Source: a bacterium | GTDB lineage: Bacteria; Patescibacteriota; Saccharimonadia; Saccharimonadales; UBA4665 | Reading direction: 5' to 3' | Length of the DNA stretch: 46,086 nt | Assembly (NCBI GenBank): GCA_021851735.1 | Contig: JAJZCD010000005.1 | Coordinates: 1 to 46,086 of the forward strand | In this document: positions 477-44,300 of the stretch, piece after piece | Layout: the number at the start of each line of letters is the position of its first letter | How positions within the stretch are numbered: position 1 is the first letter of the stretch | Program-made: the position numbers and the translations under genes | The notes under the pieces: generated by a model | Databases searched by the model: none | Told to the model about the DNA's origin: nothing | Seen by the model: only the letters and a program-made list of their open reading frames with translations

Positions 477-858
477 ACAATTAACCTCCCATCCTTAATT
501 ATTGTAATGCTACGCTCATTGCTGGACAACCAAAATAACTATAGCAATACGCAGACGTATCCATCAAGTCATTGCGAAAATCCAACCACTATCGAGGTCT
601 TACGCCTGGATAACGCAACTACAGTAGACGCCTAGACTTTTTCCTTTTGAACCATATACGATAACTACCCAAAAATCCGCAGGATAGCACAGCCCATACG
701 CATTCGATACGTTACCGTGCCGGGCTATATCAATAAGATTGATAGTGATACACGGAGGAGCCATAATCCGCACCTTGAACCAATCGTACAAGGCTTGCTA
801 CATCGATGGAGCATATAGCTCATAGAATATATTGTGCAAGTCGCGTATATTCAGAAGT

Positions 859-1305
859 ATGAAAAAACAATCTACCTCATTACGATCAAACCCAATTTGG
901 AAAGAGATGTATGCTTTAGCCGACTACATGTACGACCGGCAGGTTGAAATCACTGCGAAGTTCCCTGATGAACGATGGGTTACGGTAGCCAAGCTCCGCA
1001 ATACCGCAAACGATGCCATGTTTTACATATCACTAGCGATTGGCAGCAGCCATCTGTATGCGGCAGCATTCGAGTGGAATAGTGCGCGCAAGTACATATT
1101 TGCCATGCAAACTGAGTATATGTTTGCCGGCAAACAAAAGCTCCTGGACACTGAGCCGGAGATCATGAAAAGAATTGACAATCTGCTTCAGGAGGTCGAT
1201 ACACAATTGGCTGCTTCCGAAGAGGCAAGCAAGGAGAAAGACCGTAAAGACCTAGAACCCTGGCTTGAGAAACATCGGCTTTGGAAAGAGATAAACAACA
1301 ACTAG
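859..1305 (+). CDS. Four-helix-bundle protein, 23S rRNA intervening-sequence/Avd-like
   Basis: Helical protein with FPDERWVTVAKLRNTANDAMFYISLAIGSS, resembling the S23/Avd family; start trimmed to the ATG at 859, which has TATATT 7 nt upstream. Confidence 0.45.
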   Translation: MKKQSTSLRSNPIWKEMYALADYMYDRQVEITAKFPDERWVTVAKLRNTANDAMFYISLAIGSSHLYAAAFEWNSARKYIFAMQTEYMFAGKQKLLDTEPEIMKRIDNLLQEVDTQLAASEEASKEKDRKDLEPWLEKHRLWKEINNN

Positions 1306-1608
1306 CGAGTTTGTTGCCACCAAGCATGCTGGTGCAGCCGCAAGCGCTTGGCTCTGAGTTCGTCACCAGTCGACTCTCCATACGCACTGGAAACGGAAGA
1401 CTTAGGGGCACCAGTTTGTGGCAACCACTGCGATTCCTTGCATCGCTATCTTGCTTCTCCTAGAATGTAGCCATAGCCTTTATAATCAGGGAACGCTAGG
1501 AAGGCTTGGCAAATAGCTTGAGGGATAACCTAACAGATAGTCAACGTATCTTGCAGAAAGTGCATAGTACTGCATTGTAAATCATACATAAGGCATAAGG
1601 ATAAAAGA

Positions 1609-2676
1609 ATGAGTGACCAAGTATACCCAGACCCAATAACAGCCTATGAAGCACTGATAGGGCCTTCCGGACCAGGTGTCTCATTACATGATATTCGTAA
1701 CGAGCCCAGCTTAGTCGACATTAGTGAATCATGGCTACAGCAGCATGGGATTAAGCCAAACGATCCAGCAGAGGCACAGGATCTTATATGTAGAGTCCAG
1801 GATACTATTTGGAAACAATTTACGATCTCACTGTGCGGCGAATTACCAGAAGAGAAAGTTGATGCGTTTGATCAGGTCTGGAGTGCTATACCTAGCGTAG
1901 AAGTAGCTCTTGCCTGGCTAAAAATATATTTCCCAGGTTATGACGCGCTGGCAGAACGCGCCCAAGCAGCTATTACCCATGAAATTGAAGCTGCCACATA
2001 TAAGAAGCAGCTGGTATCGTCTTGGGCTAAGCTAGCATGGCACAAAAAGCCGGCTTTTTCTGGAGACCTTCTCAGCCCAACGCAATTAGTAAAATGGGGT
2101 CTGATCAAAAACGAACAAGACAGTGAGCGTAAGCCCCTCATTGAAAAAATATATAAAGAGCTAGAAAGACGCGTCGGCTTAACTATAGCAGCTATCATGA
2201 CTGATGAGCAGTTGTACGATTTCGAGTCTACAGGTAAAAGTGATAGCTCTGCCGACGATGACGACCAAAAAGAAAAACTTCTCGAAGACGCCGTTCCCTA
2301 CTACAAAGTCATAGTCAGCGCAGAAGCAAGAAAACTCGGCTCTGACATCCAGAACAGCTATCATAAACTTGATCTGATTGAGAATCACCAGCCAGACGTT
2401 AGCGACCAACTACACGATTTTCTAGAAAATTACGTAGTAGATAGCTCCGTTGAAGAGACTGCCGACGCGCTGCACAGCCCTGAGGTTAGACGATACTACA
2501 TAGACTGGTTACCATACGAGCTACTCAAGGCCGTGAATTCAAAAAGAATAACACCTAGATATATGAGTGAATACCTCCAACTACATTTTGAGAGTCAGCA
2601 AGACATAGATAAATGGCTACGAGACCGGTGGACCCTATGGTTCGACAAACCTTATCCTGAGATACCCACGGAATAA
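1609..2676 (+). CDS. Hypothetical acidic protein, possibly with a DUF5663-like segment
   Basis: Long ORF (355 aa) with SD-like aagga upstream; segment CGELPEEKVDAFDQVWSAIPSVEVALAWLKIYFPGYDALAERA recalls small CPR DUFs; no firm family. Confidence 0.6.
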   Translation: MSDQVYPDPITAYEALIGPSGPGVSLHDIRNEPSLVDISESWLQQHGIKPNDPAEAQDLICRVQDTIWKQFTISLCGELPEEKVDAFDQVWSAIPSVEVALAWLKIYFPGYDALAERAQAAITHEIEAATYKKQLVSSWAKLAWHKKPAFSGDLLSPTQLVKWGLIKNEQDSERKPLIEKIYKELERRVGLTIAAIMTDEQLYDFESTGKSDSSADDDDQKEKLLEDAVPYYKVIVSAEARKLGSDIQNSYHKLDLIENHQPDVSDQLHDFLENYVVDSSVEETADALHSPEVRRYYIDWLPYELLKAVNSKRITPRYMSEYLQLHFESQQDIDKWLRDRWTLWFDKPYPEIPTE

Positions 2677-2836
2677 CCACAGTTCAAGAAGTAAGGATAC
2701 CAGTCATTTTTGGCGTCCACATCGTAGCCACCTAATGAGCGTTCGCATAGACGCAAGCCCACTTTCTAGAAACCGCTACGATCAACCTCGTACATACGAT
2801 AGCATGTCAACTTTTGCAGCTCTAGGCACGCAATAA

Positions 2837-4165: not shown

Positions 4166-4218
4166 GTCGAATATTCCCTTGTTTTCTATGTTATGAGTAA
4201 GTATGTACCGATGGCTAG

Positions 4219-4248
4219 ATAGTAAACTCATAGTAACCAAAGTGTCAA
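4219..4248 (-). promoter_or_regulatory. Sigma70-like promoter for the GH27 gene (TTGACA-18-TACTAT)
   Basis: Minus strand reads TTGACA ctttggttactatgagtt TACTAT, followed by a ~50-nt leader with an SD-like element. Confidence 0.55.
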
Positions 4249-4336
4249 CTGTTTAGTTAGCAGTACCGTACACCTTTTGTGTATTGGAGCAACATAAAAT
4301 AACAGCCACCGCTAGTGCCTAAAAACACATCTTGTA

Positions 4337-6423: not shown

Positions 6424-6457
6424 ACGCTTTCTTTATTGTACAGGTGCGTTTAGAAAA

Positions 6458-7513
6458 CTAGAAGCTTCCCGCACCAATGATCGTTATGGTGTCTGCATAG
6501 TCAGCAGCGGCAGGTGTAGTTGGAGAGATCGCGGCATACTCCTTAACCGTAACTATAGCGCCGTTAGCTGTACCCGTAGATGACGCTATCTGACGAGGCG
6601 TTCCATCCAAGCCGCTCCCATTTCCTGCACCTGATGACGCATACGCAGCTGTAGCAGACGTCGTACCCGCGCCTGAACCTTGTGTAATGCCCGCTGCGGG
6701 CAAACCAGTGAGATATCCCTCAGTACCAGCCACCAAGGTTCCGTTCGTACCAGGCGTTTTAGATGCAATGGTATAGTTCTCCGTGGCAGATTTAAGCCCT
6801 GAATTAGCATCAGACGCCCACAAGAACCAACCATATGTTGCGTTTGTGTTGACGGTCGCAGTAATACCGGTCGTACCAGTTACCGAGCCCGTCGATAGCG
6901 TTCCCAGGTTATCCGCATTCGCATTGAGTGCTAGCGTGAACGATGGCGGTACAGTTGCACTGACGGTCACTTGGTCATTGCTAATAATATCCGTTTCAAC
7001 TGTCTGGGCGGCATCAGTGCCGGCGGTAATCACGACGGGCTGTTGCCCAGTAGTTGTAGGATTCGTAGTGATCGCACTGCCGGTCAGGACGCCACAGTAT
7101 GATGTGCTCGGACTTAAGGCCGACATTGACGAGAATGTAATGAGCCCCGTAGCGCCACCTGCCGCAGTTGGAGTACCGGGTAGGTTTAAAGAAGCCCCCG
7201 TAATTGCCGTACAGTTAACTGCGTTGTACGTCTGCGAATATGTTTGGGTTGTGTTTATTGATCCGTTAGTAGCTCCCGTGTAGTTTGGGAAAGATAGCGT
7301 GAGTGTGCTGCCAGTATTGCTACTAGAAGTCGTAAACTCAAAAATAATAGCAGAAGCCGCCCCTGCGTCCATATTAGTCAGAATAACTGAAGAATGCGTT
7401 AAGTATGTTGCTGCGGATACACTCTGGGTAACCATAAAATTGGCAGCTACTAGTAATAAAGCACCCGCGAGAAGTGGTAACTTCCCCCTAACTTTTCCTT
7501 TCGCTTTCAGCAT
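6458..7513 (-). CDS. Secreted Thr/Ser/Ala-rich surface protein with WxL-like C-terminal module
   Basis: Signal peptide MLKAKGKVRGKLPLLAGALLLVAANFMVTQSVSAA; C-terminal half with NATYGWFLWASDANSGL…GTEGYLTGL…ADYADTITIIGAGSF. Confidence 0.65.
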   Translation of the reverse strand: MLKAKGKVRGKLPLLAGALLLVAANFMVTQSVSAATYLTHSSVILTNMDAGAASAIIFEFTTSSSNTGSTLTLSFPNYTGATNGSINTTQTYSQTYNAVNCTAITGASLNLPGTPTAAGGATGLITFSSMSALSPSTSYCGVLTGSAITTNPTTTGQQPVVITAGTDAAQTVETDIISNDQVTVSATVPPSFTLALNANADNLGTLSTGSVTGTTGITATVNTNATYGWFLWASDANSGLKSATENYTIASKTPGTNGTLVAGTEGYLTGLPAAGITQGSGAGTTSATAAYASSGAGNGSGLDGTPRQIASSTGTANGAIVTVKEYAAISPTTPAAADYADTITIIGAGSF

Positions 7514-7521
7514 ATAGCTTT

Positions 7522-7550
7522 AGCATAAGCATTTGCGTAAAAAGTGTCAA
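7522..7550 (-). promoter_or_regulatory. Sigma70-like promoter (TTGACA-17-TATGCT), -10 box 8 nt from the start codon
   Basis: Minus strand: TTGACA ctttttacgcaaatgct TATGCT aaagctat ATG. Confidence 0.7.
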
Positions 7551-7561
7551 CGCTTTTTACG
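7536..7561. repeat. Perfect 9-bp inverted repeat cgtaaaaag-N8-ctttttacg around the -35 box
   Basis: Direct reading; arms at 7536-7544 and 7553-7561. Confidence 0.8.
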
Positions 7562-7574
7562 GGTAAATGTTCAG

Positions 7575-8180: not shown

Positions 8181-8187
8181 AGTACGC

Positions 8188-9231
8188 TCAGTAACTCGCA
8201 GCCGCTACGAAGTTAAGCACTTCCTGGTAGTCGGTACTCGGAGGATCTGAACTGGCAGCCTTGGCGAGTACATCGAGCGTCGCAGAACCAGACGTAATAG
8301 CAGTAGGCGTTGTGAATACTGGAGTGTATGTTGTCGTTTCGGTCCCTACATTAGTGCCGCTTACGTTGTAGGGACTATCAATAGCTAACGGTCCACCGGC
8401 TGACTGGCTAGCCGTTAATCCCTGTAACCCGAAGCCATGGGTACTACTTGAGAGGTTCCCTGACAATGCAGTAATAGTGGCACCATTGGCCGCACTAAAA
8501 AGGCCACCGTTCTGACCGGCCGCAAAGATACTTGCTCCATACACGCCGTTGGTCGTTAACGAAAAACTGATCGCTCCGCTAGTCACGATAGCCCCCGGCA
8601 ATAGGTTCCCAAGGCTAAGGCTATTCGGCGAGACCGAGTACGTAATGGACGGGCTTACTGTGGCTGCCGATGCAGCGGCGCCAAATTCAGTGTTAGTAAA
8701 CAATCCTTGCATAGCGGCAACCCTGACGTAGTACGTCGTACTTGAAGCCAGGCCCACTATAGGGGTGCCACTTGTTCCCCCCCAGGCAGTGTACGACTGG
8801 TATACAGGGCTAGCCCCAAGAATACCACCGGTCTGGAGATATAGGTTACCGCTTGCAAATGTACTACTCGTAGATACCTCGACTGCAAACTGCACATCAG
8901 ACGGATAGGTACTGGTATTGGGCACATTTTCATAATCATTCAGTGTTACTAGGAGTTGGTCATAGTACGTATTCGAACCATTGCTTACGGTCGGCGCTTG
9001 CGGTATGGCAAGCTGTTCGGTCTGTACTCCGCCCGTACCGGCAGTGTTATTGGGGCTTGACTCTGTTCCGGATACTCCGCCGCCGTTCACTTGTGCATGA
9101 TATGTCGTTGAAGATGAATTACTTGTACCCGCAGGGCCAATGCTGTAACTGTTCAGGTTGTAATTAGTACTTGATGAGAACGCACCAAATAATAGCATCC
9201 CCATACTGATTGCGCGCATATATCGCATCAT
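8188..9231 (-). CDS. Secreted surface protein with Fn3-like region and the same C-terminal module as 6458..7513
   Basis: QFAVEVSTSSTFASGNLYLQTGG…LASSTTYYVRVAAM is Fn3-like; C-terminal TNGVYGASIFAAGQNGGL…TDYQEVLNFVAA. Perfect TATAAT 9 nt before ATG. Confidence 0.65.
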   Translation of the reverse strand: MMRYMRAISMGMLLFGAFSSSTNYNLNSYSIGPAGTSNSSSTTYHAQVNGGGVSGTESSPNNTAGTGGVQTEQLAIPQAPTVSNGSNTYYDQLLVTLNDYENVPNTSTYPSDVQFAVEVSTSSTFASGNLYLQTGGILGASPVYQSYTAWGGTSGTPIVGLASSTTYYVRVAAMQGLFTNTEFGAAASAATVSPSITYSVSPNSLSLGNLLPGAIVTSGAISFSLTTNGVYGASIFAAGQNGGLFSAANGATITALSGNLSSSTHGFGLQGLTASQSAGGPLAIDSPYNVSGTNVGTETTTYTPVFTTPTAITSGSATLDVLAKAASSDPPSTDYQEVLNFVAAASY

Positions 9232-9240
9232 AATACTGTC

Positions 9241-9246
9241 ATTATA
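9241..9246 (-). promoter_or_regulatory. Consensus -10 box TATAAT, 9 nt upstream of the 8188..9231 start codon
   Basis: Minus strand: TATAAT gacagtatt ATG ATG; no good -35 seen. Confidence 0.55.
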
Positions 9247-12047: not shown

Positions 12048-12674
12048 TTACGATTTCGCAACCGGAGCTAGCGCTTGAACGATCTGCTCCATAAGACTGC
12101 TACCAATTGGGTTTGGAGCGTTGATAATGACCCAGGTACCGTTAGCACTAATTAGGGAGCCCGTCGTTCTCGTGGTATCACTGGTAATGAAAACTTTACC
12201 GTATTCGGTGTTGAGCTGATTGGAAGCCCTGATGCTCGCCGGGCTAAAACCAGACGGCAGAGCTTCCTCAGTGAACACTAGCGTCTTACCAACACTGTTT
12301 ACCATCACGAATTCAAGGACGCCCTGTCGATAACTGACTGATGATGGACGTAGCCTAAAATCAGTTGCAAAGCCTGGTTTTATACTGAACACATTGAACC
12401 CGGACACCTCTGAGACAATGCGCGCCGGCAGCCGAGGCACTGATGGACGGCGAACGCCTGGGCGGCGCACCAGATGCAGAACGCCGTACACTAGAACACT
12501 GCATACCATAAGCGCAAGCACCAACAAAACAGCTCGTCGAAACCAGGGGGGAAATCGACGGCTCGTCACGGCCGGTGTAAGCTCGAGCTTGGGGGCGGGG
12601 AGGATGCCATCAATAGACGTAACGCGTGGTCTATGAGGTGGAACTGCCGGCGACTTGCGTGTACTAAGATGCAT
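12048..12674 (-). CDS. Hypothetical membrane-anchored exported protein
   Basis: 208 aa with a TM segment (AVLLVLALMVCSVLVYGVLHLV); promoter TTGTCT-17-TAGATT 6 nt upstream of ATG. Confidence 0.6.
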   Translation of the reverse strand: MHLSTRKSPAVPPHRPRVTSIDGILPAPKLELTPAVTSRRFPPWFRRAVLLVLALMVCSVLVYGVLHLVRRPGVRRPSVPRLPARIVSEVSGFNVFSIKPGFATDFRLRPSSVSYRQGVLEFVMVNSVGKTLVFTEEALPSGFSPASIRASNQLNTEYGKVFITSDTTRTTGSLISANGTWVIINAPNPIGSSLMEQIVQALAPVAKS

Positions 12675-12680
12675 GCGTTT

Positions 12681-12709
12681 AATCTAGCGTATTACAAGCA
12701 ATGAGACAA
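12681..12709 (-). promoter_or_regulatory. Promoter TTGTCT-17-TAGATT, 6 nt from ATG
   Basis: Minus strand: TTGTCT cattgcttgtaatacgc TAGATT aaacgc ATG. Confidence 0.5.
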
Positions 12710-12820
12710 TGCTAATGACAAGTCACCCTCACCTCGCAGGGTGTATTGAGAAGTCAGCATCTCGCCCAGTGACTATTGCGTCCTCATACGGTACACTACG
12801 AAGAGCACCTCAAAAAAACA

Positions 12821-16344: not shown

Positions 16345-16360
16345 GTTGTAATTCACCATT

Positions 16361-18865: not shown

Positions 18866-18894
18866 TTGAACGGTAGTCTTTTTTACACTACTAT
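18866..18894 (+). promoter_or_regulatory. Promoter TTGAAC-17-TACTAT, 6 nt from ATG
   Basis: TTGAAC ggtagtcttttttacac TACTAT tgccat ATG. Confidence 0.6.
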
Positions 18895-18900
18895 TGCCAT

Positions 18901-19386
18901 ATGGTAATAACCATCGAAGATCTGCCGGCCGTGCGATCACTTTATAGAAATAAAAAGATTGTCCTTGGCAGTGGAACGTTTGATTTATTTCACCCAGCCC
19001 ATGTGCTCTATCTAAACCGAGTAACAGCCTACGGCGACATAGTCGTAATTATGATAAACAGCGACACAAGGACCAGAAGCACAAAAGGTAAAGGTCGCCC
19101 CATTTACACCGAACAACTCCGTGCGCTAATTGTAAACGCTATAAACGGCATCGATTACGTGTTTGTCGAGCCGGGAACAAATAAAGTTGGTTCCGTTGAC
19201 ACTGTACATGAGCAAGTATTCTCTACCCTCAAGCCTGATATCTACGTTACCTCAAATGAGCAATGGCTCGCTTGTAAGCAAATTATGGGCAGCACCAAAC
19301 TAATCGTAATTCCAAGATCAGACGAAGAAAAGTATCATTCTACGACTAAAACAATTAAATACATCGTAGAGCATAAGATAGTATAA
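18901..19386 (+). CDS. Cytidylyltransferase/nucleotidyltransferase-fold protein (TagD/RfaE2-like)
   Basis: KIVLGSGTFDLFHPAHVLYLNRVTAYGDIVVIMINSDTRTRSTKGKGRPIYTEQLRALIVNAINGIDYVF. Confidence 0.85.
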   Translation: MVITIEDLPAVRSLYRNKKIVLGSGTFDLFHPAHVLYLNRVTAYGDIVVIMINSDTRTRSTKGKGRPIYTEQLRALIVNAINGIDYVFVEPGTNKVGSVDTVHEQVFSTLKPDIYVTSNEQWLACKQIMGSTKLIVIPRSDEEKYHSTTKTIKYIVEHKIV

Positions 19387-19461: not shown

Positions 19462-19491
19462 CCCGCTAAGAGTCTTCGAATGCGGGTTTTT
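19462..19491 (+). terminator. Rho-independent terminator (cccgc…gcgggttttt)
   Basis: 5-bp GC stem followed by a T tract after the cytidylyltransferase gene, just before the convergent chitinase gene. Confidence 0.6.
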
Positions 19492-21064
19492 ATTTAGCTG
19501 CTTCAATAGCATTGACCTGAGCTTGTGTCAGGGCGACCCATGGTGAACCATCAGGATTTGAGGAAGCTGCTGCCGGACTATCACCTTGATTCCACCACTT
19601 AGCTTGGAAGGGCACTTCATTGAACAGGACGCGTTGACCAGTATTGTAAATCGCGGTACCCGACCAATTAGGATACGTTCCAGTCGGAAGCGTTGGTTGT
19701 GGTATGGGTTTTTCTCCGGGTAGTACCGGCCCTATAAGTTCCCACGGTGTCTGCCACGATTGTAGTACCGGATCGTCTGGCGCGCTACCTTGATTCCACC
19801 ACTTAGCTTGGTAAACGTTATGATGCCATACAACTTTTGTTCCTTCCAAATACGTACCTGTTGGTGACCATATCTGGTAAGGACTCGTGGCCGGGTTGTC
19901 CGGCGTCTGTTTTGTTGTTATAGGATCGGCTTTAGTGATAATACCGGCACTCAGCGTAATACTACCATCAAAGCCAGCACCAAGAAGATTGGAGAACTTT
20001 TGGCTCCCTTGTTTGACCCCACTGCAGGAGTCGGAAACAATCTTCGTGTCTACATAGTTACTGCCACACGTCAAGTCACGGTTCGCTGACCACATTGACA
20101 TGCGGCCGACACCATGGGCCCTCGCGAAGGCGTTGAGTCCCTTAGCATCACTAAGCGTAAATACTTCATTGGCATTATCATTCTGTCCTATCATGGGAGT
20201 TGCCCCAATTTTTGACCATAAGGTCGTATTGTCCAGGTGTATGCCCGCACGATCGTACAAAATACCCAGCTGTCGCACGGTTTGTGTGAGTGCGCTCTCT
20301 GATCCGGTCAGCATCGTCTGGCCCTTCGTAAGACTTGCGCCGTAGTCCATCGTCATAACATTAACACCCGCGAGGTCAACCTTCTTAGCAAGAAGCTGAC
20401 TAACCGCATTGGTACCCGCCTCGCTTAAGCCCTGTGGCGTAGCAGGTAGCGTAACCCAGATCGCAAGTTGTTTACCGGCAGCTCGACGCTCAGACTGTAG
20501 CTTTGCGAGCACCTCGGCCCGGCGTACCCCTGCAGCAGTGCTCGTGAGCCCTTTGCCCTCAAGATCAAGGTCGATAGTATTGATGTTATATCGATCAATA
20601 ACTGTTTTATACGCGTCAAACAGCTTTGTTTGGTTCGTGCAGTTAACCGCTAACTCGTTATTATCAAGACCACCAAACGAAATCGCGACACTGCCACCTT
20701 GTTGCTGCAGACGAGCAATACGGCGGTCAAGATCAAGAGCTCTGGAAGCTTGGTCTAAGGTGTAGGCTGCGCCCCAAGTTGGTGTACATGGATCTTGCGG
20801 AGACGAAACAATAAACGATAGCACCGCATCACGATGTGACGTAGCACCCATGTTCTCAAACGGGAACAACGGCGTTGCAGTCACATCGACATATGCCGCA
20901 AACCAGGGATGTCGCGGCGCCGCTGACTGCACCTTATGGTGTTGCCGGACGGCAAAGATGACGCCCGACGCGATACCGGCCAGTAGAAAAACGGCCAGTA
21001 GTACGCGCCACAGAGATAACTTTCGAACGGGCTCTTGGCTTACGGTTGGCGTAGATGGAGTCAT
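19490..21064 (-). CDS. GH18 chitinase-like protein with two C-terminal CBM5/12-like repeats, N-terminal TM anchor
   Basis: INTIDLDLEGKGL (GH18 DxDxE), VNVMTMDYGA; two copies of …YQAKWWNQG…/…FQAKWWNQG… chitin-binding repeats. Confidence 0.88.
   Translation of the reverse strand: MTPSTPTVSQEPVRKLSLWRVLLAVFLLAGIASGVIFAVRQHHKVQSAAPRHPWFAAYVDVTATPLFPFENMGATSHRDAVLSFIVSSPQDPCTPTWGAAYTLDQASRALDLDRRIARLQQQGGSVAISFGGLDNNELAVNCTNQTKLFDAYKTVIDRYNINTIDLDLEGKGLTSTAAGVRRAEVLAKLQSERRAAGKQLAIWVTLPATPQGLSEAGTNAVSQLLAKKVDLAGVNVMTMDYGASLTKGQTMLTGSESALTQTVRQLGILYDRAGIHLDNTTLWSKIGATPMIGQNDNANEVFTLSDAKGLNAFARAHGVGRMSMWSANRDLTCGSNYVDTKIVSDSCSGVKQGSQKFSNLLGAGFDGSITLSAGIITKADPITTKQTPDNPATSPYQIWSPTGTYLEGTKVVWHHNVYQAKWWNQGSAPDDPVLQSWQTPWELIGPVLPGEKPIPQPTLPTGTYPNWSGTAIYNTGQRVLFNEVPFQAKWWNQGDSPAAASSNPDGSPWVALTQAQVNAIEAAK
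19583..19811. repeat. 25-bp exact direct repeat (accttgattccaccacttagcttgg) in the two CBM repeats
   Basis: Identical copies at 19583-19607 and 19787-19811, encoding the AKWWNQG core. Confidence 0.85.
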
Positions 21065-23385: not shown

Positions 23386-23714
23386 AATTTCCGTCCTATA
23401 TAAAGAAAAACTGCATATTTCAGAATCTACACTGCTTGTCGCAACGTAGTGTGTACATTCTCATCATCGGTTCACAGCCTTAATACTAGACGCTTCACCG
23501 GATTTACATAATAATAACACCTGTTCACATATATTGCAAGCATTATGTTGGGCAGTTGCTAGGCTATTGCAGCTTTGCAGCAATTCCGCTTATTGACACC
23601 AACAACAGGGATCAGCTCCCACGGCCACCCGCATACCAAACGCCCTGAGTTAGATGAGCTCTCTATGCAACTCAGATACTACCGAGTCAAGCGCAATCTG
23701 TTACACTACAGTGT

Positions 23715-24359
23715 ATGCATAAGACACGTGCCGTCGTTTTCGACGTTGACGGAACATTATCGCCAGACGTATCATGGCTTGCGCTCACTCGAGACTTAGG
23801 AGCATCCGTTGAGAGACATGAGCAGATTTATCACGACTACAAGCATGGCAAGACAGATTACGTAACCGCCAAATCACAACTGCTCACCCTCTGGCAGGCA
23901 ACCGGAAATGCCAATAAGGAATTCTTTGCCCAGCTGTTTGACGCACTACCCCTTAACCCAGCAGCGGAAAAGGTCGTGCAAGCCGCCAAAATCGATTACA
24001 CGGTTTGCCTAATAAGTGGCTCGATGGACCTATATACTAAAATCGTGGCCGAGAAACTTGCTATCGACCACTGGTACGCAAACACTACGTTACACTGGGA
24101 CACTAACGGCAGCCTTGTCGATATGGATTACGACTTAGATCAGGCGAGCAAAAAGCTTGAACAGTTCGACCAATTCTGCGAAACAAACCGTATCAGAACC
24201 GAGGATTGTTTCGTTGTGGGCGACGGAGAAAATGAGGAACTACTATTTGAGACATGCAAGCACGGCATATTGCTTGGCAGCAACCCTAACACTTCGACAC
24301 ATGCGTGGAGGCACATTACCCAATTGGCAGATTGTGAACCGATTCTACGTGACAACTAA
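23715..24359 (+). CDS. HAD-family hydrolase, phosphoserine-phosphatase-like
   Basis: AVVFDVDGTLSPDVSW, CLISGSMDLYTKIVAE, CFVVGDGENEELL (HAD motifs). Confidence 0.88.
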   Translation: MHKTRAVVFDVDGTLSPDVSWLALTRDLGASVERHEQIYHDYKHGKTDYVTAKSQLLTLWQATGNANKEFFAQLFDALPLNPAAEKVVQAAKIDYTVCLISGSMDLYTKIVAEKLAIDHWYANTTLHWDTNGSLVDMDYDLDQASKKLEQFDQFCETNRIRTEDCFVVGDGENEELLFETCKHGILLGSNPNTSTHAWRHITQLADCEPILRDN

Positions 24360-24401: not shown

Positions 24402-25568
24402 TTAAAATATCTCCTCCAGGCTGCCATCCTCGCAAACGCTATAATAGGCAGTAAGTCCGTCCCGTGAGGTCGTGGAGAGAGTATTGGAATCTATAATCGT
24501 AATAAATAATCTCGGTTCATCAATGCCGTAATAGTATGGGGTCAACACATGGTTAGAATCAATCGGGGCCTGTAACAAACGTACAACAACTGCTAAAGCA
24601 TCCGTCAGCTTACTATATTTAACTTCAAAGGAACGACATTCGGCATCCACAAAGGCCCTTCTTACTTTGTCAGGGAAGTCACGAGCCTCTCGTACTTTGT
24701 CGTCGTATGGATCTCCCAAAAGCTCTGGATGATGGCTAGCAACCGACAGACGAGGGCCCCATTCCATGGTAACTGTGTGGTCCAATTGATACGCATCTGA
24801 CGCGTCATCTTTCGCCATACTTACGATAAGCGTGGAAGGCTCAGCCCGTATACTCACATCCCGCACGCCAAGCTTAAAGTCGAAGGTAGCATAATCGAGT
24901 GCACTGTAGCCGCAGTATCTATTTATAGCAAGCTCTTCAAAATTCAATTGCAGCAAGTCTACTAAGCATGCGCTACCGACACGACGTAACGCATCAGCCA
25001 TGTGCACCTTTTTCGTATTGAGCACACCGCAAGCTTCATCGTAAAGCCGCCGATCGTGGATAGCTTGCGAAATATCCTCTTCACCTATTACCGAGAGTTT
25101 AACGGCGAGCGAATCAACAAGTGTCACACCATGTATAATTCCTCCGATTACGACCGCTTCTTTAAGTGGAAGATCATCAATCGGATATTTTCCGTAGTTA
25201 ACTCTGTATGTGCCGTATCTTTCGTCGAACTCAGTTGAAAGGCTGTGAGATGATTTAGGTCTCACAGTACTAAAACGAGATAAAAACGTACCTCTGGATT
25301 GTTTCCCTGACGCCGAATGACCAGCTGGTATAAAGTTATCACATTGCTCCAAATACCTTCTGAGAGGCCATCCATGTTCGGGCCTCCCGTCATCTGCCGC
25401 AATCTGGACAACCGTACCATCCGGCATGCACGCCCAAAAAGTCTCCGCAACACGTCTCTGCCTCGACTCGAGCTCTGCTGCTTTAGCGTAGCAGATGATG
25501 ATCGCTTCTTGGCTAGCTATACTAGACTCACTACCAAAATGTCCTGACAGATCTTCCTGACCACTCAT
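24402..25568 (-). CDS. Hypothetical protein (388 aa), no recognised family
   Basis: Long ORF with its own promoter TTGACT-17-GATAGT 8 nt before ATG. Confidence 0.6.
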   Translation of the reverse strand: MSGQEDLSGHFGSESSIASQEAIIICYAKAAELESRQRRVAETFWACMPDGTVVQIAADDGRPEHGWPLRRYLEQCDNFIPAGHSASGKQSRGTFLSRFSTVRPKSSHSLSTEFDERYGTYRVNYGKYPIDDLPLKEAVVIGGIIHGVTLVDSLAVKLSVIGEEDISQAIHDRRLYDEACGVLNTKKVHMADALRRVGSACLVDLLQLNFEELAINRYCGYSALDYATFDFKLGVRDVSIRAEPSTLIVSMAKDDASDAYQLDHTVTMEWGPRLSVASHHPELLGDPYDDKVREARDFPDKVRRAFVDAECRSFEVKYSKLTDALAVVVRLLQAPIDSNHVLTPYYYGIDEPRLFITIIDSNTLSTTSRDGLTAYYSVCEDGSLEEIF

Positions 25569-25576
25569 AGTAAAGC

Positions 25577-25605
25577 ACTATCGTAGCCCTGTAGACTAAA
25601 GTCAA
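25577..25605 (-). promoter_or_regulatory. Promoter TTGACT-17-GATAGT, 8 nt from ATG
   Basis: Minus strand: TTGACT ttagtctacagggctac GATAGT gctttact ATG. Confidence 0.55.
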
Positions 25606-26231: not shown

Positions 26232-26726
26232 CTAAACCCGTAGTCTCTCGCCATTGAGTAGGGCAAACCCTCGTGCAATAACGTCCAATTCTTTATCTTC
26301 CGAATCACGGTTGATCGAGTATGTACCGGCCTCGCCTTCCGCGAACCAACCACAGTTCATATGATCATCCGGCTCAAGACTGACATCGTCAAGTAGGTCC
26401 TTAAACTGCGCAAAGTAGCACGCCTCTATAGCATGAGCACCCTTCACTTCATTTATGTACGTGAATACACTAAATGGGTCGCCAACGGTAATGTCCTTAC
26501 CAAGTTCTTCACGGACTTCACGCTTGAGTCCGAACAAAATATCTTCGCCAAAATCAATATGACCACCGGGCAGTTCATACACTCCAGGGAAGAATTTCTT
26601 AGTCATTGCTCGTTGGGCAAGAAATACTTTTTCGACACCATCAAAATTGTGGTGAATAAATACACACGCCACTATAACCTGTTTGCCGACAGCGGGCGTT
26701 TCACTATGGTGTACTATTTTCGTCAT
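26232..26726 (-). CDS. NUDIX hydrolase
   Basis: Nudix box GGHIDFGEDILFGLKREVREELGKDI; start trimmed to MTKIVHHS, with TATACT 7 nt upstream. Confidence 0.88.
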   Translation of the reverse strand: MTKIVHHSETPAVGKQVIVACVFIHHNFDGVEKVFLAQRAMTKKFFPGVYELPGGHIDFGEDILFGLKREVREELGKDITVGDPFSVFTYINEVKGAHAIEACYFAQFKDLLDDVSLEPDDHMNCGWFAEGEAGTYSINRDSEDKELDVIARGFALLNGERLRV

Positions 26727-27008
26727 ATCTATGAGTATACCGTAGTTGCCATTGCTAGACTTTAGATTACAATCGATACGCAAAGTCATCATCGACAAAC
26801 TCGGGCGGATAGATATAACCACCTACAATCCACTGTGTGGGTTGTTCTGCTCGCCTCAGAAACAGCAAACATCGTCGGTATACCACACATCAGCAAAAAC
26901 ACGAACCAGCTTTTTGTAAATTGGATTACAAAAGGCGCACATGCTTGTGTGGTATAGATAACAGGTAGCGCGCACATTAAGTTTGCTAAAAAGAATGAGG
27001 TTCTGCAA

Positions 27009-32071: not shown

Positions 32072-32106
32072 CCCCGTACCGTGGACTGATTCATACGCAT
32101 CATCAC

Positions 32107-35997: not shown

Positions 35998-36153
35998 ATC
36001 GTAACGTCTGTCGTACTTATTCTGCTTACGATTGTACCACGGCTGAGCCACATTCTCATCGAGCTACACAGTTTTTCTGTGCTCTTATAGATTAAAGAAA
36101 CCTAGCTACCAAATTGTGATCAGAAAAGCAAACGCTTGTAGCGCCCCTAACCC

Positions 36154-37818
36154 CTAGAAATGGTCACGGATATGACTGTAGCTATACTGCCAATCGGCAT
36201 CAGCTTTCTTGTGAGGGTTGAAGATATTCGCCGGGTCAAAAATACTTTTCACCTCCCGGAACATGGCTACAACTGGTTTGCCGAACTGCGCCTCTAGCCA
36301 CGGACCGCGCACCAATCCATCGTTGTGCTCGCCGCTCAGGCTGCCTCCATATTTAAGTACCAAGTCATTGACTTCACGCTGAGAGGGTTCGATCTTTTTA
36401 CGTTCATTAGGATCCTCAATTTTCATGAGCGGAATGACATGGAAGTTGCCGTCTCCCATGTGACCAGCTATAGTCGCAAATAGCTTGTATTTCTTAATGA
36501 TCTTCTGAAGTTTTGGCAAAAACTCTGCCAAGTTTTTGGGCGGGACGATAAAGTCATCAATATATGGCGCCGTATGCTTGTCTTTCACTTTACTCCTAAG
36601 CAGCTGGAAGCTGTAGCGTCGCATAATCCAGAATTTCTCGCTCTTACCTTCCGTAGGGTCTTCCTCGAACCCGTTGATTTCATACCGTGCCCGATATGTA
36701 GCCAGGTCACGGTGTAATGCCTTAACCCGCTCGCGTACTTCTTGCTCAGTCTCGCCATTAAACTCAACCATCAGGATAAGCTTCGGTATACCACGCAGGA
36801 GTTGCAGACCATCAGGGGTAAGTGTAAGCAATAAATGTATGAATCGTTTTACTCCGAGCAACTTCAAAAAGCTCGGCATAAACCGTATGCTGAGCCAAAG
36901 CGTGGCGTCGTCAAAACTCTCGAATGTCGCCGGTTTATGTTCCAGCACGGTCGGGATAAGCTCACCCAGTTCATTGATATTCCTGAGAAACAACACGAGT
37001 AAACCGGAATGCGGTTTATGCGGAACGAGCCGGTACGTTATATCCGTTACGAAACCAAGCGTGCCCTCCGAGCCCACAATGAGTTTCGTCAAATCAAATA
37101 TACCGGTTTCACGGTCCCAGACTTCCCATAGTGTATAGCCCATGCTGTTTTTGCTGACCTGCGGAGCAGCCGCTTTAATTTCATCGTAGTGTTTCTCGCA
37201 CAAGTCATAGATACGCTTGTAGATTTTACCTTCGTAGTCATTCTGAGCAATTTTCTTGTCAAGCTCGTGTTTGTTAAGAGGCTTTACGACATATTCATTG
37301 CCATCAGCCAACACGACGCGTAGCTCGTTCACGAAATCCTTGACTTTGCCGTACTCCAGGCTTTTCTCGCCTCCAGAGTTGTTGGCTACCATACCGCCGA
37401 CAGAACATAAATCACGACTGGCTGGGTAGCTGGGCATAAGTGCGTTCATTTTCAGTGTCTCGACTTCAAAATCACGGTAAAACACCCCGGGCTGTGTTTG
37501 CGCCTCGGTAGCGGTCACACGCTCAATCTTAGTAAAGTGAGCGTTGAAATCGACGATGATCGATTCATTAATCGCACCACCAGCCATATCAGTTCCCGCA
37601 CTACGGGCGGTGACTGATAAATCAGGCATGTGCTTCTTACTCTGGGCGACCAATGTTACCAATGTCTGGACATCAGCACTATCTTTAGGTTTTACGACCA
37701 GTTGAGGCACCAGTTCAAACATACTGGCGTCATGACTATATTTTTCTTTGGCGGTAGCGGAGTCATCAAGCTCTCCTTTAAAACCGCTGTTGCTCAATTT
37801 TTGCTTAAAGTCTTCCAT
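36154..37818 (-). CDS. FAD-linked oxidoreductase, D-lactate dehydrogenase/glycolate oxidase (GlcD-type)
   Basis: SARSAGTDMAGGAIN, CSVGGMVANNSGGEKSLEYG, IAGHMGDGNFHVIP, SGEHNDG. Confidence 0.9.
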   Translation of the reverse strand: MEDFKQKLSNSGFKGELDDSATAKEKYSHDASMFELVPQLVVKPKDSADVQTLVTLVAQSKKHMPDLSVTARSAGTDMAGGAINESIIVDFNAHFTKIERVTATEAQTQPGVFYRDFEVETLKMNALMPSYPASRDLCSVGGMVANNSGGEKSLEYGKVKDFVNELRVVLADGNEYVVKPLNKHELDKKIAQNDYEGKIYKRIYDLCEKHYDEIKAAAPQVSKNSMGYTLWEVWDRETGIFDLTKLIVGSEGTLGFVTDITYRLVPHKPHSGLLVLFLRNINELGELIPTVLEHKPATFESFDDATLWLSIRFMPSFLKLLGVKRFIHLLLTLTPDGLQLLRGIPKLILMVEFNGETEQEVRERVKALHRDLATYRARYEINGFEEDPTEGKSEKFWIMRRYSFQLLRSKVKDKHTAPYIDDFIVPPKNLAEFLPKLQKIIKKYKLFATIAGHMGDGNFHVIPLMKIEDPNERKKIEPSQREVNDLVLKYGGSLSGEHNDGLVRGPWLEAQFGKPVVAMFREVKSIFDPANIFNPHKKADADWQYSYSHIRDHF

Positions 37819-38126
37819 ACTGCTTAAGCTTAGCACACAATGCTAGCGTTGCGTTAGGACGCAACCGTGTGAGCGCAATCAGCATCATGGGCATAGCGTC
37901 AGCCAACGTAGCAAGCTAGCTCTGACCGATGTACATAAAGACATATTTTCTCACGGGGCTACTGGCGTGCCGCTGGTTATAAGAAGCTAGTATCGACCTT
38001 GAAGCTAGAGCCCAGGCTTCAACTCCCCGATTGTCGAACTGGACTTGCGTGTCCCTACATGTGCATGGCTTACACTCACGCTGACTTACCGGCAAACTAC
38101 CATACCGAACGGCTATCCAAGGTTAT

Positions 38127-38156
38127 TTGCATACCACTTATAGTTATTGCTACAAT
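38127..38156 (+). promoter_or_regulatory. Promoter TTGCAT-18-TACAAT with extended -10 (TGC), 10 nt from ATG
   Basis: TTGCAT accacttatagttattgc TACAAT gacgattgat ATG. Confidence 0.6.
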
Positions 38157-38166
38157 GACGATTGAT

Positions 38167-39366
38167 ATGAAAAATACGACACAAAAACAACACATAGTAA
38201 TCGTAGGTGGTGGTTTCGGGGGCATAAAAACTGCGTTAGAGCTCTCCAAGCAGCCACACCTTTTTGACGTCACACTAATATCGGATCGACCAGATTTTTG
38301 GTATTTTCCGACTATGTACCACACTGCCACTGGTGGAACACGAGCTCAGAGCAGTATACCGCTTAGGTTCTTATTCAGAAACACCCACGTTAAGCTTATA
38401 GAAGGCCAAGCGCTCGGACTGGACCGTGAGACAAAAGTCCTCACACTCGCCGGGAATAAGACCGTGCACTACGACAAGCTCATCATGGCACTCGGTGTTG
38501 TCACCAACTATTTTGGCATACCGGGGCTCGCAGAGTTCAGCTACGGCATCAAGTCTATCGGCGAGGCAGAACAGCTAAAACGACATCTACACCAACAACT
38601 CCTCGATGAAGGGAAGCCAGACCTTAACTACATAGTAGTCGGTGGCGGCCCCACTGGCATAGAGCTAGCCGGCGCACTCGGCGCATATCTCAAGTTCATC
38701 ATGAAACAACACGGATTACCGGATCGTACCGTCCATGTTGACCTCGTAGAGATGGCTAAACATCTCATGCCCCGCATGCCAAAGAGCGTCGGCAAAGCCA
38801 TTGAGCGGCGCCTGAAAAGCCTCGGAGTAACGTTATACCTAGGTAAATCAGTAGAAGGCCAGAACGCCGATGAACTCGTCGTTGCGGGGAAACCCATTCG
38901 CAGCCACACTGTCGTCTGGACCGCCGGCCAGGCAAATAATCCATTCTTCAACGAAAATTCATTCCGCATTAGCCCCCGCAAGAAGGTTGTGGTAGATGAA
39001 TTCTTACGTGCAGAAAGTGACATATTCGTTATAGGCGACAACGCCGAAACAGAGTACAGCGGCATGGCGCAAACCGCCATATACGACGCCGAGTTCGTCA
39101 CCAACAATCTCGTCAAAGAATCCGAAGGAGAGCCGAAACTAGCATATCGACCCAAAAAGCCAGTCTACGTCACCCCAGCTGGGCCCAAATGGGCAGCAAT
39201 CGAGTGGGGAAATACCCATATTTACGGGAAACTCGGTTGGTTACTACGAGAAGCCGGTGACTTTGTGTCGTTCACTGACATAGAATCGATTCCTGACGCC
39301 ACCGTCCAATGGGCGCGAGTCCTGCAAGATCAACATCTCTGTAAGGTATGCGGGTCCGTTGCATAA
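38167..39366 (+). CDS. ndh: Type II NADH dehydrogenase (NDH-2 family)
   Basis: HIVIVGGGFGGIKTALEL, DRPDFWYFPTMYHTATGG, YIVVGGGPTGIELAGAL, DIFVIGDNAE; start trimmed to the ATG following the promoter. Confidence 0.88.
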   Translation: MKNTTQKQHIVIVGGGFGGIKTALELSKQPHLFDVTLISDRPDFWYFPTMYHTATGGTRAQSSIPLRFLFRNTHVKLIEGQALGLDRETKVLTLAGNKTVHYDKLIMALGVVTNYFGIPGLAEFSYGIKSIGEAEQLKRHLHQQLLDEGKPDLNYIVVGGGPTGIELAGALGAYLKFIMKQHGLPDRTVHVDLVEMAKHLMPRMPKSVGKAIERRLKSLGVTLYLGKSVEGQNADELVVAGKPIRSHTVVWTAGQANNPFFNENSFRISPRKKVVVDEFLRAESDIFVIGDNAETEYSGMAQTAIYDAEFVTNNLVKESEGEPKLAYRPKKPVYVTPAGPKWAAIEWGNTHIYGKLGWLLREAGDFVSFTDIESIPDATVQWARVLQDQHLCKVCGSVA

Positions 39367-39615
39367 AGCAATCTCATTTTTACAGAACAGTATCTAGTCC
39401 TAAACACTACGCATCCTTTTCGTGCCAACCATGAACCACCGGTACTCCAAATCGCTTGATACAGAGTAGCTTCCTTGATTGTCCCGCCAAACCAAGTAGC
39501 TGCTGAACAGACTGCGATATAGTGGGTATACACAAGCACAAAACATGTGTTATCTTAGTGCTGACGAAAATTAAATGTAAGACGTTGGAGCAACCAACTT
39601 GTAGTATGTTCGTGT

Positions 39616-41223
39616 ATGAAAAAATATGAAATAGCCGTAATTGGCGGCGGCTTCACTGGCGCCGCATTGGCTGCTGCACTAGTCCGTGCTGCGGTCGACA
39701 GATGTATGGAAAACCTTTCGATTACGATGTACGAACCGGGTAGCATTGGCCCCGGGCTGGCGTATGACGTAGAAGCCCCAGAATCATTCAAACTGAATCA
39801 TGAGCTAGACCTGATGGGTTCAGTTAATGTACATCTAGCGCATACAGACGTACGTGATTTCTACTGCTGGGTCAAAAAAAATTTGCAAGACTTGCAGTAC
39901 ATATACCCCGCATACAACTTGCGGAATCCGAAAGAATACGTACCTCGTAGTTTATTCGGCAGATATCTACAAGCACGATATGCAGAGACCAAGTGGTACG
40001 CCTTACAGCACAATGTTATGATCACCGAATGCCATACGCATGTCAAAGACATCCAGAAAATGGGTGGTAAATTCAGTGTCCACGCTAACGATATTCGCCA
40101 GTTCGACGCTGTCATCCTTGCTACAGGGAACTACTTTGACGCTGTAGACACGGCCACGCTGCCAAGCAACAAACACTTTCGAGCCTCCGACTACGAAGGC
40201 TACATGGGGGAAACTATACCGGAAGGCTCCTTCATGCTAATCGCCGGAACAGCGCTTTCTGCATACGATGCAGCGCTCTGCGCACTAGAATCGACGCGCT
40301 ACCGTACTGTTATTATGGCGTCACGCCGTGGCATGCTCCGCAAAGTCCGTGGCGCAACAAAACCATATCTACGACAATTTTTGACCATTGAGAACCTTGA
40401 AACACTGGCCGGAGGGGCTAATGCTCAGTTCACACTAGAACACATCCTGCACCTGCTCCAGGCAGAGCTAGATCATGCGTACGGTAGGCCGGTGCGCTGG
40501 AAAGAAGGATATACCGTTGAAGAAATAGTAGATGCGCTCAAACAAGACATCATAGTAGCCCAAACAGGACAGGAGCTGCTTTGGCGTTCTATACACGCCT
40601 CTTTAACCGACAAAGAACGTCATGAAATATACGACCGGCTGACTATATCTGACAAGAAACTGTTTCTCAAGAAATACCTGAGCCTATACCAATTGTTCAG
40701 CGCACCCATGCCGATTACGAACGCCAGGAAATTGCAGCATTACCTTGCAAACGGCCAATTGAAACTCGTCAATGGTTTGGATGACATACGTTACATACCC
40801 AATGCGAAACAGTTCGTGTTATCCTACAAGCCCAGCGTGCAAGATCTTTTAGATACTGACATCCGTAGCAATGCTCAAGACTACCCGATAAAAGCTGACG
40901 TCCTTGTAAACGCTAGGGGCTTTGGCCGCGACATATCACCGATACCACTCTATTCCCGGATGCTAGCCCACCAGCTCATATCTGCCCACCCACTTGGCGG
41001 TATACGGGCAGACATTGCTACGCATAACGTTCTAGACACATCAGGACGGCCAATACGAAAATTATACGCCGTAGGACACATGGTCTGCGGTGAGACGTCA
41101 CTCGTGCACACTTCATTACAATTGTCGCGTATGTGTCTGGACATAGGGGAGCATGTACTGGATCAATATGACACACAGGCTGCTCACCGATCAGATGAGA
41201 TGGATATGCAACTTGCAGTATGA
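39616..41223 (+). CDS. FAD/NAD(P)-binding protein (PF13454-like)
   Basis: KYEIAVIGGGFTGAALAAALV, GPGLAYDVEAPESFKLNHELDLMG, VLVNARGFGRDISPIP. Confidence 0.8.
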   Translation: MKKYEIAVIGGGFTGAALAAALVRAAVDRCMENLSITMYEPGSIGPGLAYDVEAPESFKLNHELDLMGSVNVHLAHTDVRDFYCWVKKNLQDLQYIYPAYNLRNPKEYVPRSLFGRYLQARYAETKWYALQHNVMITECHTHVKDIQKMGGKFSVHANDIRQFDAVILATGNYFDAVDTATLPSNKHFRASDYEGYMGETIPEGSFMLIAGTALSAYDAALCALESTRYRTVIMASRRGMLRKVRGATKPYLRQFLTIENLETLAGGANAQFTLEHILHLLQAELDHAYGRPVRWKEGYTVEEIVDALKQDIIVAQTGQELLWRSIHASLTDKERHEIYDRLTISDKKLFLKKYLSLYQLFSAPMPITNARKLQHYLANGQLKLVNGLDDIRYIPNAKQFVLSYKPSVQDLLDTDIRSNAQDYPIKADVLVNARGFGRDISPIPLYSRMLAHQLISAHPLGGIRADIATHNVLDTSGRPIRKLYAVGHMVCGETSLVHTSLQLSRMCLDIGEHVLDQYDTQAAHRSDEMDMQLAV

Positions 41224-41332
41224 GCGTGCTAAATCGTATAGTACCCCCGCGTTCTTATTGACAATGGTATGTCACTGAGGACATCGTACGTAGTACCACG
41301 TCTGGCTGGCTCTGTGGCATAATAAAGACTAT

Positions 41333-44300
41333 ATGCAGGGCTTTGATGACGTATACGCCGCACTAAATACCGCTCAGAAAAAAGCAGTAGACGCCATAGA
41401 TGGTCCCGTACTCGTTATAGCCGGCCCGGGCACCGGGAAGACTCAATTGCTTAGCGCACGCACAGCCCAGATACTCCGTAAGACCGACACCCTGCCACAG
41501 AACATTCTGTGTCTGACGTTCACTGAAAGCGGCGCAGCCAACATGCGTGAACGCTTGACACGGTTTATTGGGAAGAGTGCCTACGACGTACAGATTGGCA
41601 CATACCATTCGTTTGGAGGTAACCTGATTCGAAACTACCCGGAATATTTTTCCGAAACTCGTTTGGAACGGCCGGTAGATGAGTTAGGACAATACCAAAT
41701 AATCGAAAAAATCGTCGACCAGCTCAGCTATCGCAACCCATTAAAGCAGACCCGCCATCACCTGCATGACCTCATTAGTACTATCAGCGAGGTCAAACGC
41801 GGGTTACTTGAGCCGGAAGACTTGCGCAGCATAGCTCAGAGTAACCTGGCCGTCATAGAGCAAGCCAGTAAAATCACCAGCGAGTACTTAGCCGCCCATA
41901 CAAAACGTCTGCCAAGCTCACTAGCTATCGCTGAGCCATTGTTCGGAGAGATTTATGGCGGGTTGCAGGATTTGGCCGAAACTGCCGACATCCGACCGCC
42001 GTTTGAGAACCTAGCCCGCTTAGCTGCCAACGCGCTCGAGAATGCGCTCACGGCAGCCACTGAAGCCGGCAAGACCACACCGCTCACCGCATGGAAAAAC
42101 ACATGGCTTGTCAAAAATGCCGACAACCAGTACGTGCTTGCCGGCGCACTTGAATCCGCCCGTATCGCCGCACTAGCGGAGGTTCTTGAATCGTATACAC
42201 AGGCCCTGGCCGACCGTGGGTTGTATGATTTCGATGACATGATTCTGCGTGCTATCCACACACTCGAAACCAACCCGGATCTAAAATATACGTTGCAGGA
42301 ACGCTACCAGTACATTCTGCTCGACGAGTTCCAAGACACGAACGCCGCTCAGCTACGGCTCGTGGAGCTGCTCACCGACAGCCCAACACACGAAGGCCGA
42401 CCAAACGTGCTAGCCGTAGGCGATGATGATCAAGCTATCTATGCGTTCCAAGGGGCACAATACAGTAATATGCTAGATTTCTTTCGACTCTTTAACGATG
42501 TGCTTGTCATAAACTTACGTGAGAACTACCGTTCAACAGCAGCAGTGCTCGAGACAGCTAAAAATGTTTCCGGCCAGATATCCGATACCCTAAGCGCTAG
42601 TTTCCCCGACCTAGACAAAACACTTATCCCGGCCCGCCACTCCGCACACAGCGACACGCCAAGCGAAACCGCTGGAGCAGCGATTGCACACACCGAGTAC
42701 ACCAGCGAAATTGCCGAGCTATCAGGAGTAGCCGAGCATATCAAGCAGCTCCTACATGACGGCATACAGCCCAGTGAAATCGCCGTACTCGCGCCCAAAC
42801 ACCGCTATTTAGAACCGCTCGTACCGTATTTGGACGGTGTTCCACTCCGCTACGAGCGCCGCGAAAACATATTGGAAACACCAGTCATACGCCAGCTACT
42901 TACCATGAGTAAGCTCGTCCTAGCGCTTCATGAGCGTAATTTTACCGTAGCAGATAGTTACTGGCCCGAAGTACTGAGTTACACGTTTTGGAAATTTTCG
43001 ATCAGTAGTATCTGGCAATTGAGTTGGTCGGCAATCGACCAGCATAAACATTGGAGCGAGCTCTTGCTAACGCACGAAGATTTCCGTCCCGCGGCTCTAT
43101 TGTTCTTAAAGCTGGCCGGGCAAGTCGAAACCGAAACACTCGAAGTCATACTGGATCGGCTCATTGGGACTGAGGACGTCCAAACTGGCGAGACCGATCT
43201 ACCGACTGTATGCTCTGAGATGCGTACCGAGCTACTACTCGAGGACGACAGTAGCATGCATCAGGCCGTGACCGCACTGACTGTACTGCGCGCCCGCTTG
43301 CATGAACATCAACTGCAACGAGGTAGCGCCCTAGGTTTACGTGACCTACTGGAGTTCGTTGCCGCATACGAGGCTGCAGGCGAGCAGATGATAAACACCA
43401 GTCCGTACAGCGAGGCTGCCGATGCCGTACAACTCATGACAGTCTTCAAATCTAAGGGACTAGAATTTACGCATGTATTTTTATTATGCTGCCAAGACGA
43501 TGTGTGGGGCAGTAGCTCTCGCAGCAACGGTAACAAGCTCACGTTACCCGCTAACCTGACGCCTATTCGACACGCTGGTACTACCGAAGATGAGCGACTG
43601 CGTATACTATACGTTGCCATGACCCGGGCCAAACGCGGCTTGCATCTGAGCAGCCATGCCGCCACCTACGCTGGTAAAAAACCAGCTCGGCTCAAGTACC
43701 TGGCCGAAACCGAGCAACCTGACGGCTCAGTTATCAGTGAGGTGTTACCCGCACCGCACAACGTACTTATTCGTGACACAACTACCTCACTACCACTTGA
43801 GAGCTTAGAAACCAACTGGCGCACCCGGCACGCCACCCTCACACCACCATTGCGGGAACTCCTGCGCGAGCGACTGCAACGGTACCGTTTGAGTCCGACG
43901 CATCTCATTAAGTTTATCGACTTGGATCATGGCGGCCCGCAAAGCTTTCAGTTGGAGAGTTTACTACGGTTCCCAAGCGCACCGACCATCGACACCGCAT
44001 TTGGCAACGCTATGCATGAAACACTGGAATGGCTGCAGCAACAAACTAACCAACACCACGTCACGCCACAACTGGCCGCAGCCAACGGCTACCTAGCTAC
44101 TCGCCTAGAAATGCAGACACTGTTACCGGAACAGCAGGCAATGCAACAGGCAAGGGGAGAGCACGCACTAAAAGCAATACTCAGCAATCAATCGTTTACG
44201 CCTGGCAATACACCCGAATACAATTTTCGCGACGAAGGCGTAATAGTAGAAGAAGCTCACATGTCCGGGAAAATAGACCTGTTAGAAATTGACCAGGCGC

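Follow-up and report, generated by a model that had tools for sequence, protein, structure and literature searches.

Several genes of a Saccharibacteria genome carry a sigma70-like -10 box only a few nucleotides before the start codon, and we asked whether their mRNAs could begin at, or almost at, the first codon. The window, that is, the whole stretch of 46,086 nt in which this arrangement was noticed, is contig C42 of a genome (G000) of 1.126 Mb in 53 contigs, 97.7% complete, belonging to the Saccharibacteria within the Patescibacteria (CPR), a placement based on its helicase, whose closest relatives are from Candidatus Saccharibacteria. The 12 box-start strings quoted in the original prediction were all found verbatim at ATGs of open frames (Table 1), as were the Shine-Dalgarno (SD) sequences of 2 genes cited as contrast. 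All 12 boxes are present, but 2 of them are not strict TANNNT (those of the 388-aa gene and of the helicase). The further claim that transcription would start at or within about 3 nt of the ATG holds best for spacings of 6–7 nt, which are the strongest individual examples, while spacings of 8–10 nt (7 of the 12) would imply leaders of about 1–4 nt rather than none; the NDH-2 box, the farthest of the set, would leave a leader of about 3–4 nt at best.

Table 1. Start regions in the window: boxes close to ATGs, and 2 SD-led genes for contrast (positions are those of the window)
Feature	Positions	Strand	Element and spacing	Remark
Avd-like gene, ATG 859	846..861	+	TATATT-7-ATG	exact string; start less certain
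351-aa protein (6458-7513), ATG 7513	7511..7550	-	TTGACA-17-TATGCT-8-ATG	exact string; comparative start
347-aa gene, ATG 9231	9229..9246	-	TATAAT-9-ATG	exact string; start uncertain, several ATGs follow
208-aa gene (12048-12674)	12674..12710	-	TTGTCT-17-TAGATT-6-ATG, start 12674	exact string
Cytidylyltransferase-like gene (18901-19386)	18866..18903	+	TTGAAC-17-TACTAT-6-ATG	exact string; codon model likewise picked 18901
HAD-like gene (23715-24359)	23699..23717	+	extended -10 TGTTACACT-7-ATG	exact string; first 150 nt without other in-frame start
388-aa gene (24402-25568), ATG 25568	25566..25605	-	TTGACT-17-GATAGT-8-ATG	exact string; weak, non-TANNNT box
NUDIX-like gene, ATG 26726	26724..26739	-	TATACT-7-ATG	exact string; start backed by alignment with relative
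FAD protein (36154-37818), ATG 37818	37816..37835	-	extended -10 TGCTAAGCT-8-ATG	exact string; comparative start
NDH-2, ATG 38167	38127..38169	+	TTGCAT-18-TACAAT-10-ATG	exact string; comparative start
PF13454 FAD/NAD-binding protein (39616-41223)	39602..39618	+	TAGTAT-8-ATG	exact string
UvrD/PDDEXK helicase (41333-44716)	41315..41335	+	TGGCATAAT-9-ATG	exact string; orthologue comparison
SD-led contrast gene, ATG 476	474..490	-	gggagg-ttaattgt-ATG	
SD-led contrast gene, ATG 45634	45632..45646	-	ggaggtaacat-ATG	

The start of the 208-aa gene is unambiguous, with an in-frame stop 12 nt upstream and the next in-frame start 105 nt downstream; for the Avd-like gene, our codon model preferred another ATG 48 nt downstream, and the box of the NUDIX-like gene is absent in the aligned relative (L187). 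Taken together, TANNNT lies 6–10 nt before the start in about 10 of the 29 non-operon genes of the window, compared to about 3.8 expected from a per-position background of 2.6% (binomial P = 0.003). This enrichment is suggestive, individual examples with a spacing of 9–10 nt could be chance matches, and it is the whole genome that settles the question. As a side observation on the gene content of the window, the 524-aa protein at 19490-21064 (- strand) has a GH18 (chitinase-type) domain and CBM5/12 modules and adjoins a 774-aa glycosyltransferase (21061-23385).

We analyzed 1,122,666 bases, nearly the whole genome, in which the codon model called 953 genes, and considered as lead genes those with a divergent neighbour or separated by 100 nt or more from the preceding gene. 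A position-specific search supported the original prediction: TANNNT at -13/-12 precedes 141 of 616 lead genes, while 200 dinucleotide shuffles gave 34.9 ± 6.0 (maximum 53) and the 2 other controls, internal in-frame ATGs and intergenic ATGs that are not starts, gave 3.7% and 5.3%. Among the 806 non-operon genes, the box was found at -12 in 117 cases and at -13 in 66, against about 21 per position elsewhere. The distribution of spacings also tails at 8–11 nt, and some of these transcripts may have leaders of 1–4 nt. By excess over background, about 17% of the non-operon genes carry the box at spacings of 6–7 nt (-12/-13) and about 25% at spacings of 6–11 nt, shares that are approximate as they depend on starts from a home-made gene caller.

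The frequency of the box depends on gene context. TANNNT at -13/-12 was found in 26.2% of divergent genes and, for neighbours on the same strand, in 20.6% with a gap of at least 100 nt, 23.5% with 40–100 nt and 17.6% with 15–40 nt; in operon-internal genes (gap below 15 nt), it fell near background, 5.1% vs 2.4%. The SD behaved in the opposite way, with 24% in divergent genes and 56% in operon-internal ones. Moreover, box and SD occurred together in only 1 of 252 divergent and 1 of 364 distant same-strand lead genes. The two modes of initiation that had been proposed to coexist are indeed both there, as 2 nearly exclusive gene sets split by operon context. Leaderless (TA-led) genes in the sense of Zheng 2011 (PMC3160421) have a TANNNT-like box about 10–12 nt before the start, above shuffled sequence, and no SD between the two, and the genes here show both features. 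The box also prefers the first genes of transcription units, as is generally expected of leaderless genes.

We then characterized the motif itself. Alignment of the 183 genes on their boxes gave T (58%) G (58%) n TA t a c/a T, an extended -10 element. TGnTAnnnT occurs at exactly -12 in 68 genes, compared to about 2 per other position (about 30 times enriched), and TGn accompanies 44% of boxes against a background of 5.5%. The -35 is weak, with TTG at a spacing of 16–18 nt in 18.6% of cases vs 5.5–8.7% at control spacings, and it is more frequent in boxes lacking TG (27/102) than in those having it (7/81). Such a trade-off between -35 and TGn is typical of sigma70 promoters, and the boxes indeed show a -10 consensus combined with either a -35 at 16–18 nt or the TGn extension. 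Counting the A of the ATG as +1 puts the box at -12 to -7, the canonical -10 register. A T or C precedes the ATG in 84% of cases, which fits the usual transcription start, a pyrimidine at -1 followed by a purine at +1. The start codon was ATG in 178 of the 183 box genes; in other terms, the box is found in 178/711 ATG genes (25%), 5/70 GTG genes (7%) and 0/25 TTG genes, on a background of about 5%, and the annotation-free scan detected no excess for GTG or TTG at the N6 spacing. Finally, within 140 nt upstream of box-led genes, no other extended -10 was found above the coding background (0.00–0.015 per 10 nt vs 0.012), while SD-led and other genes showed about 0.03 per 10 nt, about 2.5 times background. 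Separately, we noticed 4 proteins with sigma70 region 2 in this 1.1-Mb genome (G000: C35, C36, C17), one of them within a 704-aa open frame; relatives have 1–6.

The explanation that in our opinion best accounts for these data, and that we hold with high confidence, is that leaderless, AUG-only mRNAs transcribed from extended -10 promoters would be widespread in this genome and coexist with SD initiation. The promoters would belong to the ordinary sigma70 family, most of them being extended -10 promoters (TGnTAtAcT/TATAAT), often without a recognisable -35. The first transcribed nucleotide would be the A of the start codon or lie within about 1–3 nt of it, leaving an mRNA that is leaderless or nearly so. 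Initiation by the 70S ribosome, or by 30S-IF2, on a 5'-terminal AUG is established in other bacteria, and the same SD-independent route presumably operates here. It would serve between about a fifth and a quarter of the genes that have their own promoter, while the SD would serve operon-internal genes and also other lead genes, a distinct set whose promoters lie further upstream.

Among the alternatives, the least unlikely, which we nevertheless reject as very improbable, takes the TA box for a non-canonical, AT-rich signal of ribosome binding, as proposed for Bacteroidetes, that would be read in an mRNA leader, rather than for a promoter. A signal of this type is expected to be placed relative to the start codon, as the box is. 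A further point in its favour comes from a genome of family f21 (G052, loci L244-L253), in which TANNNT at -12 precedes 28% of sampled lead genes and also 12% of operon-internal genes, with no SD signal above background in either class; T stands at -1 in 76% of its operon-internal genes. These operon-internal boxes may mark promoters within operons, or have another role. However, in our genome the box is near background precisely in operon-internal genes, where a ribosome-binding signal should be most needed. Moreover, its anatomy is that of a sigma70 extended -10, with TGn, a -35 at 16–18 nt trading off with it, and a pyrimidine at -1 before the A at +1, and the genes that carry it have no other promoter.

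A second alternative, that starts are misannotated and normal promoters serve true starts further downstream, with ordinary leaders and SD, is less probable still. It draws on the simplicity of the codon model, whose calls agree with comparative starts in 181 of 255 genes and which, used alone, misplaced some of them (12305 instead of 12674, for example). We therefore re-derived starts by protein homology alone where possible, and at these 255 homology-defined starts the same box peak was present, both in the own genome and in relatives. In several genes of the window, 100 nt or more are free of any alternative start, and the restriction of the excess to ATG also speaks against wrongly placed starts.

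Conservation was analyzed in pairs formed by a gene of the own genome and its counterpart in a relative. The box was found in both members of 26 pairs, in the own genome only in 20, in the relative only in 29 and in neither in 179 (odds ratio 8.0, P = 6e-9); control positions gave no such association. Upstream identity is otherwise about 30%, and in box-led pairs it was raised at box positions -12, -11 and -7 and at -1, while codon-type period-3 conservation began at codon 2. Therefore, translation does start at these ATGs, and selection acts on the box. Judging from these alignments, the box is selectively kept while the surrounding DNA is randomised. The remaining idea, that boxes are chance AT-rich matches or in-frame TAA/TAG stops upstream of starts, can be dismissed genome-wide, since AT-rich upstream DNA does give 2–3% TANNNT per position and -12 is in frame, but the peak extends to -13, which is not in frame, and is missing at -9, the extended element is enriched at exactly -12, the box is conserved, and shuffles, internal ATGs and E. 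coli (150 kb, same gene caller, enrichment ratio 1.0) do not produce it.

The helicase of the window illustrates both modes in a single gene. We compared 73 orthologues for the 6–9 nt before the ATG and found a box without SD in 41, an SD without box in 22, both in 4 and neither in 6. The CATAAT variant of the window gene is shared by L002, its nearest relative, and L003 carries GATAAT instead. Among orthologues in lead position, 34 have the box and 2 the SD; among those lying at most 30 nt from an upstream gene, 7 have the box and 20 the SD (Fisher P = 1e-8, a value that overstates independence because the orthologues are related). The trend is nevertheless unambiguous: which signal a copy carries depends on its transcriptional context. 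This series, SD-led in an operon and putatively leaderless when alone, offers a natural experiment on the interconversion of initiation modes.

We also looked at the distribution of the signal across the phylum. With the same caller, D. radiodurans MP1 gave an enrichment ratio of 7.1, as expected, while Saccharibacteria loci gave 2.9, a genome of the same genus (G001) 4.3 and the other Patescibacteria samples 1.8. In an annotation-free scan of 95 other Patescibacteria genomes, TGNTAYAMT-N6-ATG occurred 1016 times, compared to 839 times for 4 control spacings together (210 each), a 4.8-fold excess; at a false discovery rate of 5%, the excess holds in 65 of 96 genomes, our own among them. These results suggest that many genes with extended -10 promoters are probably leaderless in most of the phylum Patescibacteria, their mRNA beginning at the first codon. 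The leaderless reading is supported by the one-base precision of the position peak, the conservation, the lack of an SD and of another promoter, the switch with operon context and this phylum-wide excess, all of them seen in the sequence and pointing to 5' ends, and to a ribosomal step, that we infer. A broader proposal would make leaderless initiation from such promoters an old property of the whole phylum, some families, such as f21, having wholly lost a recognisable SD and combining the leaderless with another non-SD mode; we put this forward only tentatively, and lean against it in this full form. Across the 96 genomes, an index of GGAGG-N4-8-ATG, which is diluted by intragenic GGAGG, showed no correlation with the leaderless index (rho 0.12, P = 0.25), and therefore we claim no cross-lineage trade-off between modes.

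Two further observations concern other spacings and other lineages. In the Saccharibacteria loci L002-L081, TGNTAYAMT-ATG spacings of 9 and 10 nt are also raised (39 and 30 vs a mean of 10), as if there were a second class with a leader of 3–4 nt. Family f20 (5 genomes) showed no excess in the scan (ratio 1.0). In one of its genomes (G086, L234-L243), few genes end in TGA (8/141) and coding density rises when TGA is read through; its SD is below background (2% vs 6%) and no extended -10 peak is seen at -12. The lineage may have a recoded genetic code and use still another mode of initiation.

Concerning the translation apparatus, the 3' tail of the 16S rRNA keeps CCTCC (GGATTACCTCCTTTCT), and the genome encodes an S1-domain protein (a 364-aa frame at C21 with at least 2 S1 matches) and bS21. 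SD initiation is therefore available and used, with the putative leaderless route beside it. No match to Era in the genome reaches the family cut-off, and most CPR are without Era (PMC10582724). We also observed that at the 3' end of the 16S gene (G000:C21:3134-4666) the highly conserved GGATCACCTCC, within the Era recognition site, reads GGATTACCTCC here.

The signature described here is not new in itself. Zheng 2011 (PMC3160421) defined TANNNT about 12 nt before the start as a leaderless signature, validated by dinucleotide shuffles, and found such TA-led genes abundant in Actinobacteria and Deinococcus-Thermus among the genomes available by 2011; TM7 is not mentioned in its text. The Patescibacteria genes show the same signature. 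In Actinobacteria (Mycobacterium; PMC4633059, PMC3898074), mapping identified hundreds of genes with a transcription start at the start codon, and SD-led and leaderless genes coexist. This coexistence is shared with our genome, where the putative leaderless genes were recognised from sequence. GTG serves as well as ATG in mycobacterial leaderless genes, while here GTG and TTG show no excess, and the promoters lean on the TGn extension. According to GeneMarkS-2 predictions (PMC9581028), leaderless transcription occurs in 21.6% of the representative bacteria; CPR genomes may be among them without having been remarked on. In the open-access literature searched, we found no description of leaderless or SD initiation in Saccharibacteria, Patescibacteria or CPR. 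The mechanism would, by inference, be the same as in the known leaderless systems; what appears to be new is its phylum-wide holder, with AUG-only use and the dominance of the extended -10 as local features.

Patescibacteria make up a very large, mostly uncultured share of bacterial diversity and have reduced ribosomes. If leaderless genes are common in them, start prediction tuned to the SD mislabels starts in thousands of genomes, and expression cassettes for the few cultured strains would need a promoter placed directly against the ATG. Initiation by a stripped-down ribosome on a bare AUG would, in turn, become directly testable in cultivable Saccharibacteria.

We finally considered divergent genes, for which we used called gene pairs; an annotation-free CAT-N-ATG scan with open frames both ways was dropped, as chance open frames swamped the signal. 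When divergent starts lie less than 45 nt apart, the box at -12/-13 is present on 45% of sides, vs 17% at 200–600 nt, and 8 of 39 such compact pairs have it on both sides. Pairs 22–27 nt apart leave no room for two leaders, and two conventional leadered promoters would therefore lie inside the other gene. In divergent pairs about 20–30 nt apart with overlapping or adjacent -10 boxes serving the two genes, both mRNAs would thus be leaderless. Symmetric bidirectional bacterial promoters are known (PMC12825309, PMC10268837), in which a near-palindromic -10 region likewise serves two divergent genes; here the starts are only about 20–27 nt apart, both messages would be leaderless, and the cases are few. 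In G052, a pair 27 nt apart (L249, 12650/12678) has the box on both sides. Our own genome has a pair with starts 22 nt apart on contig C20 (6121/6144), where both boxes come from a single near-palindrome, ATTGTATACT.
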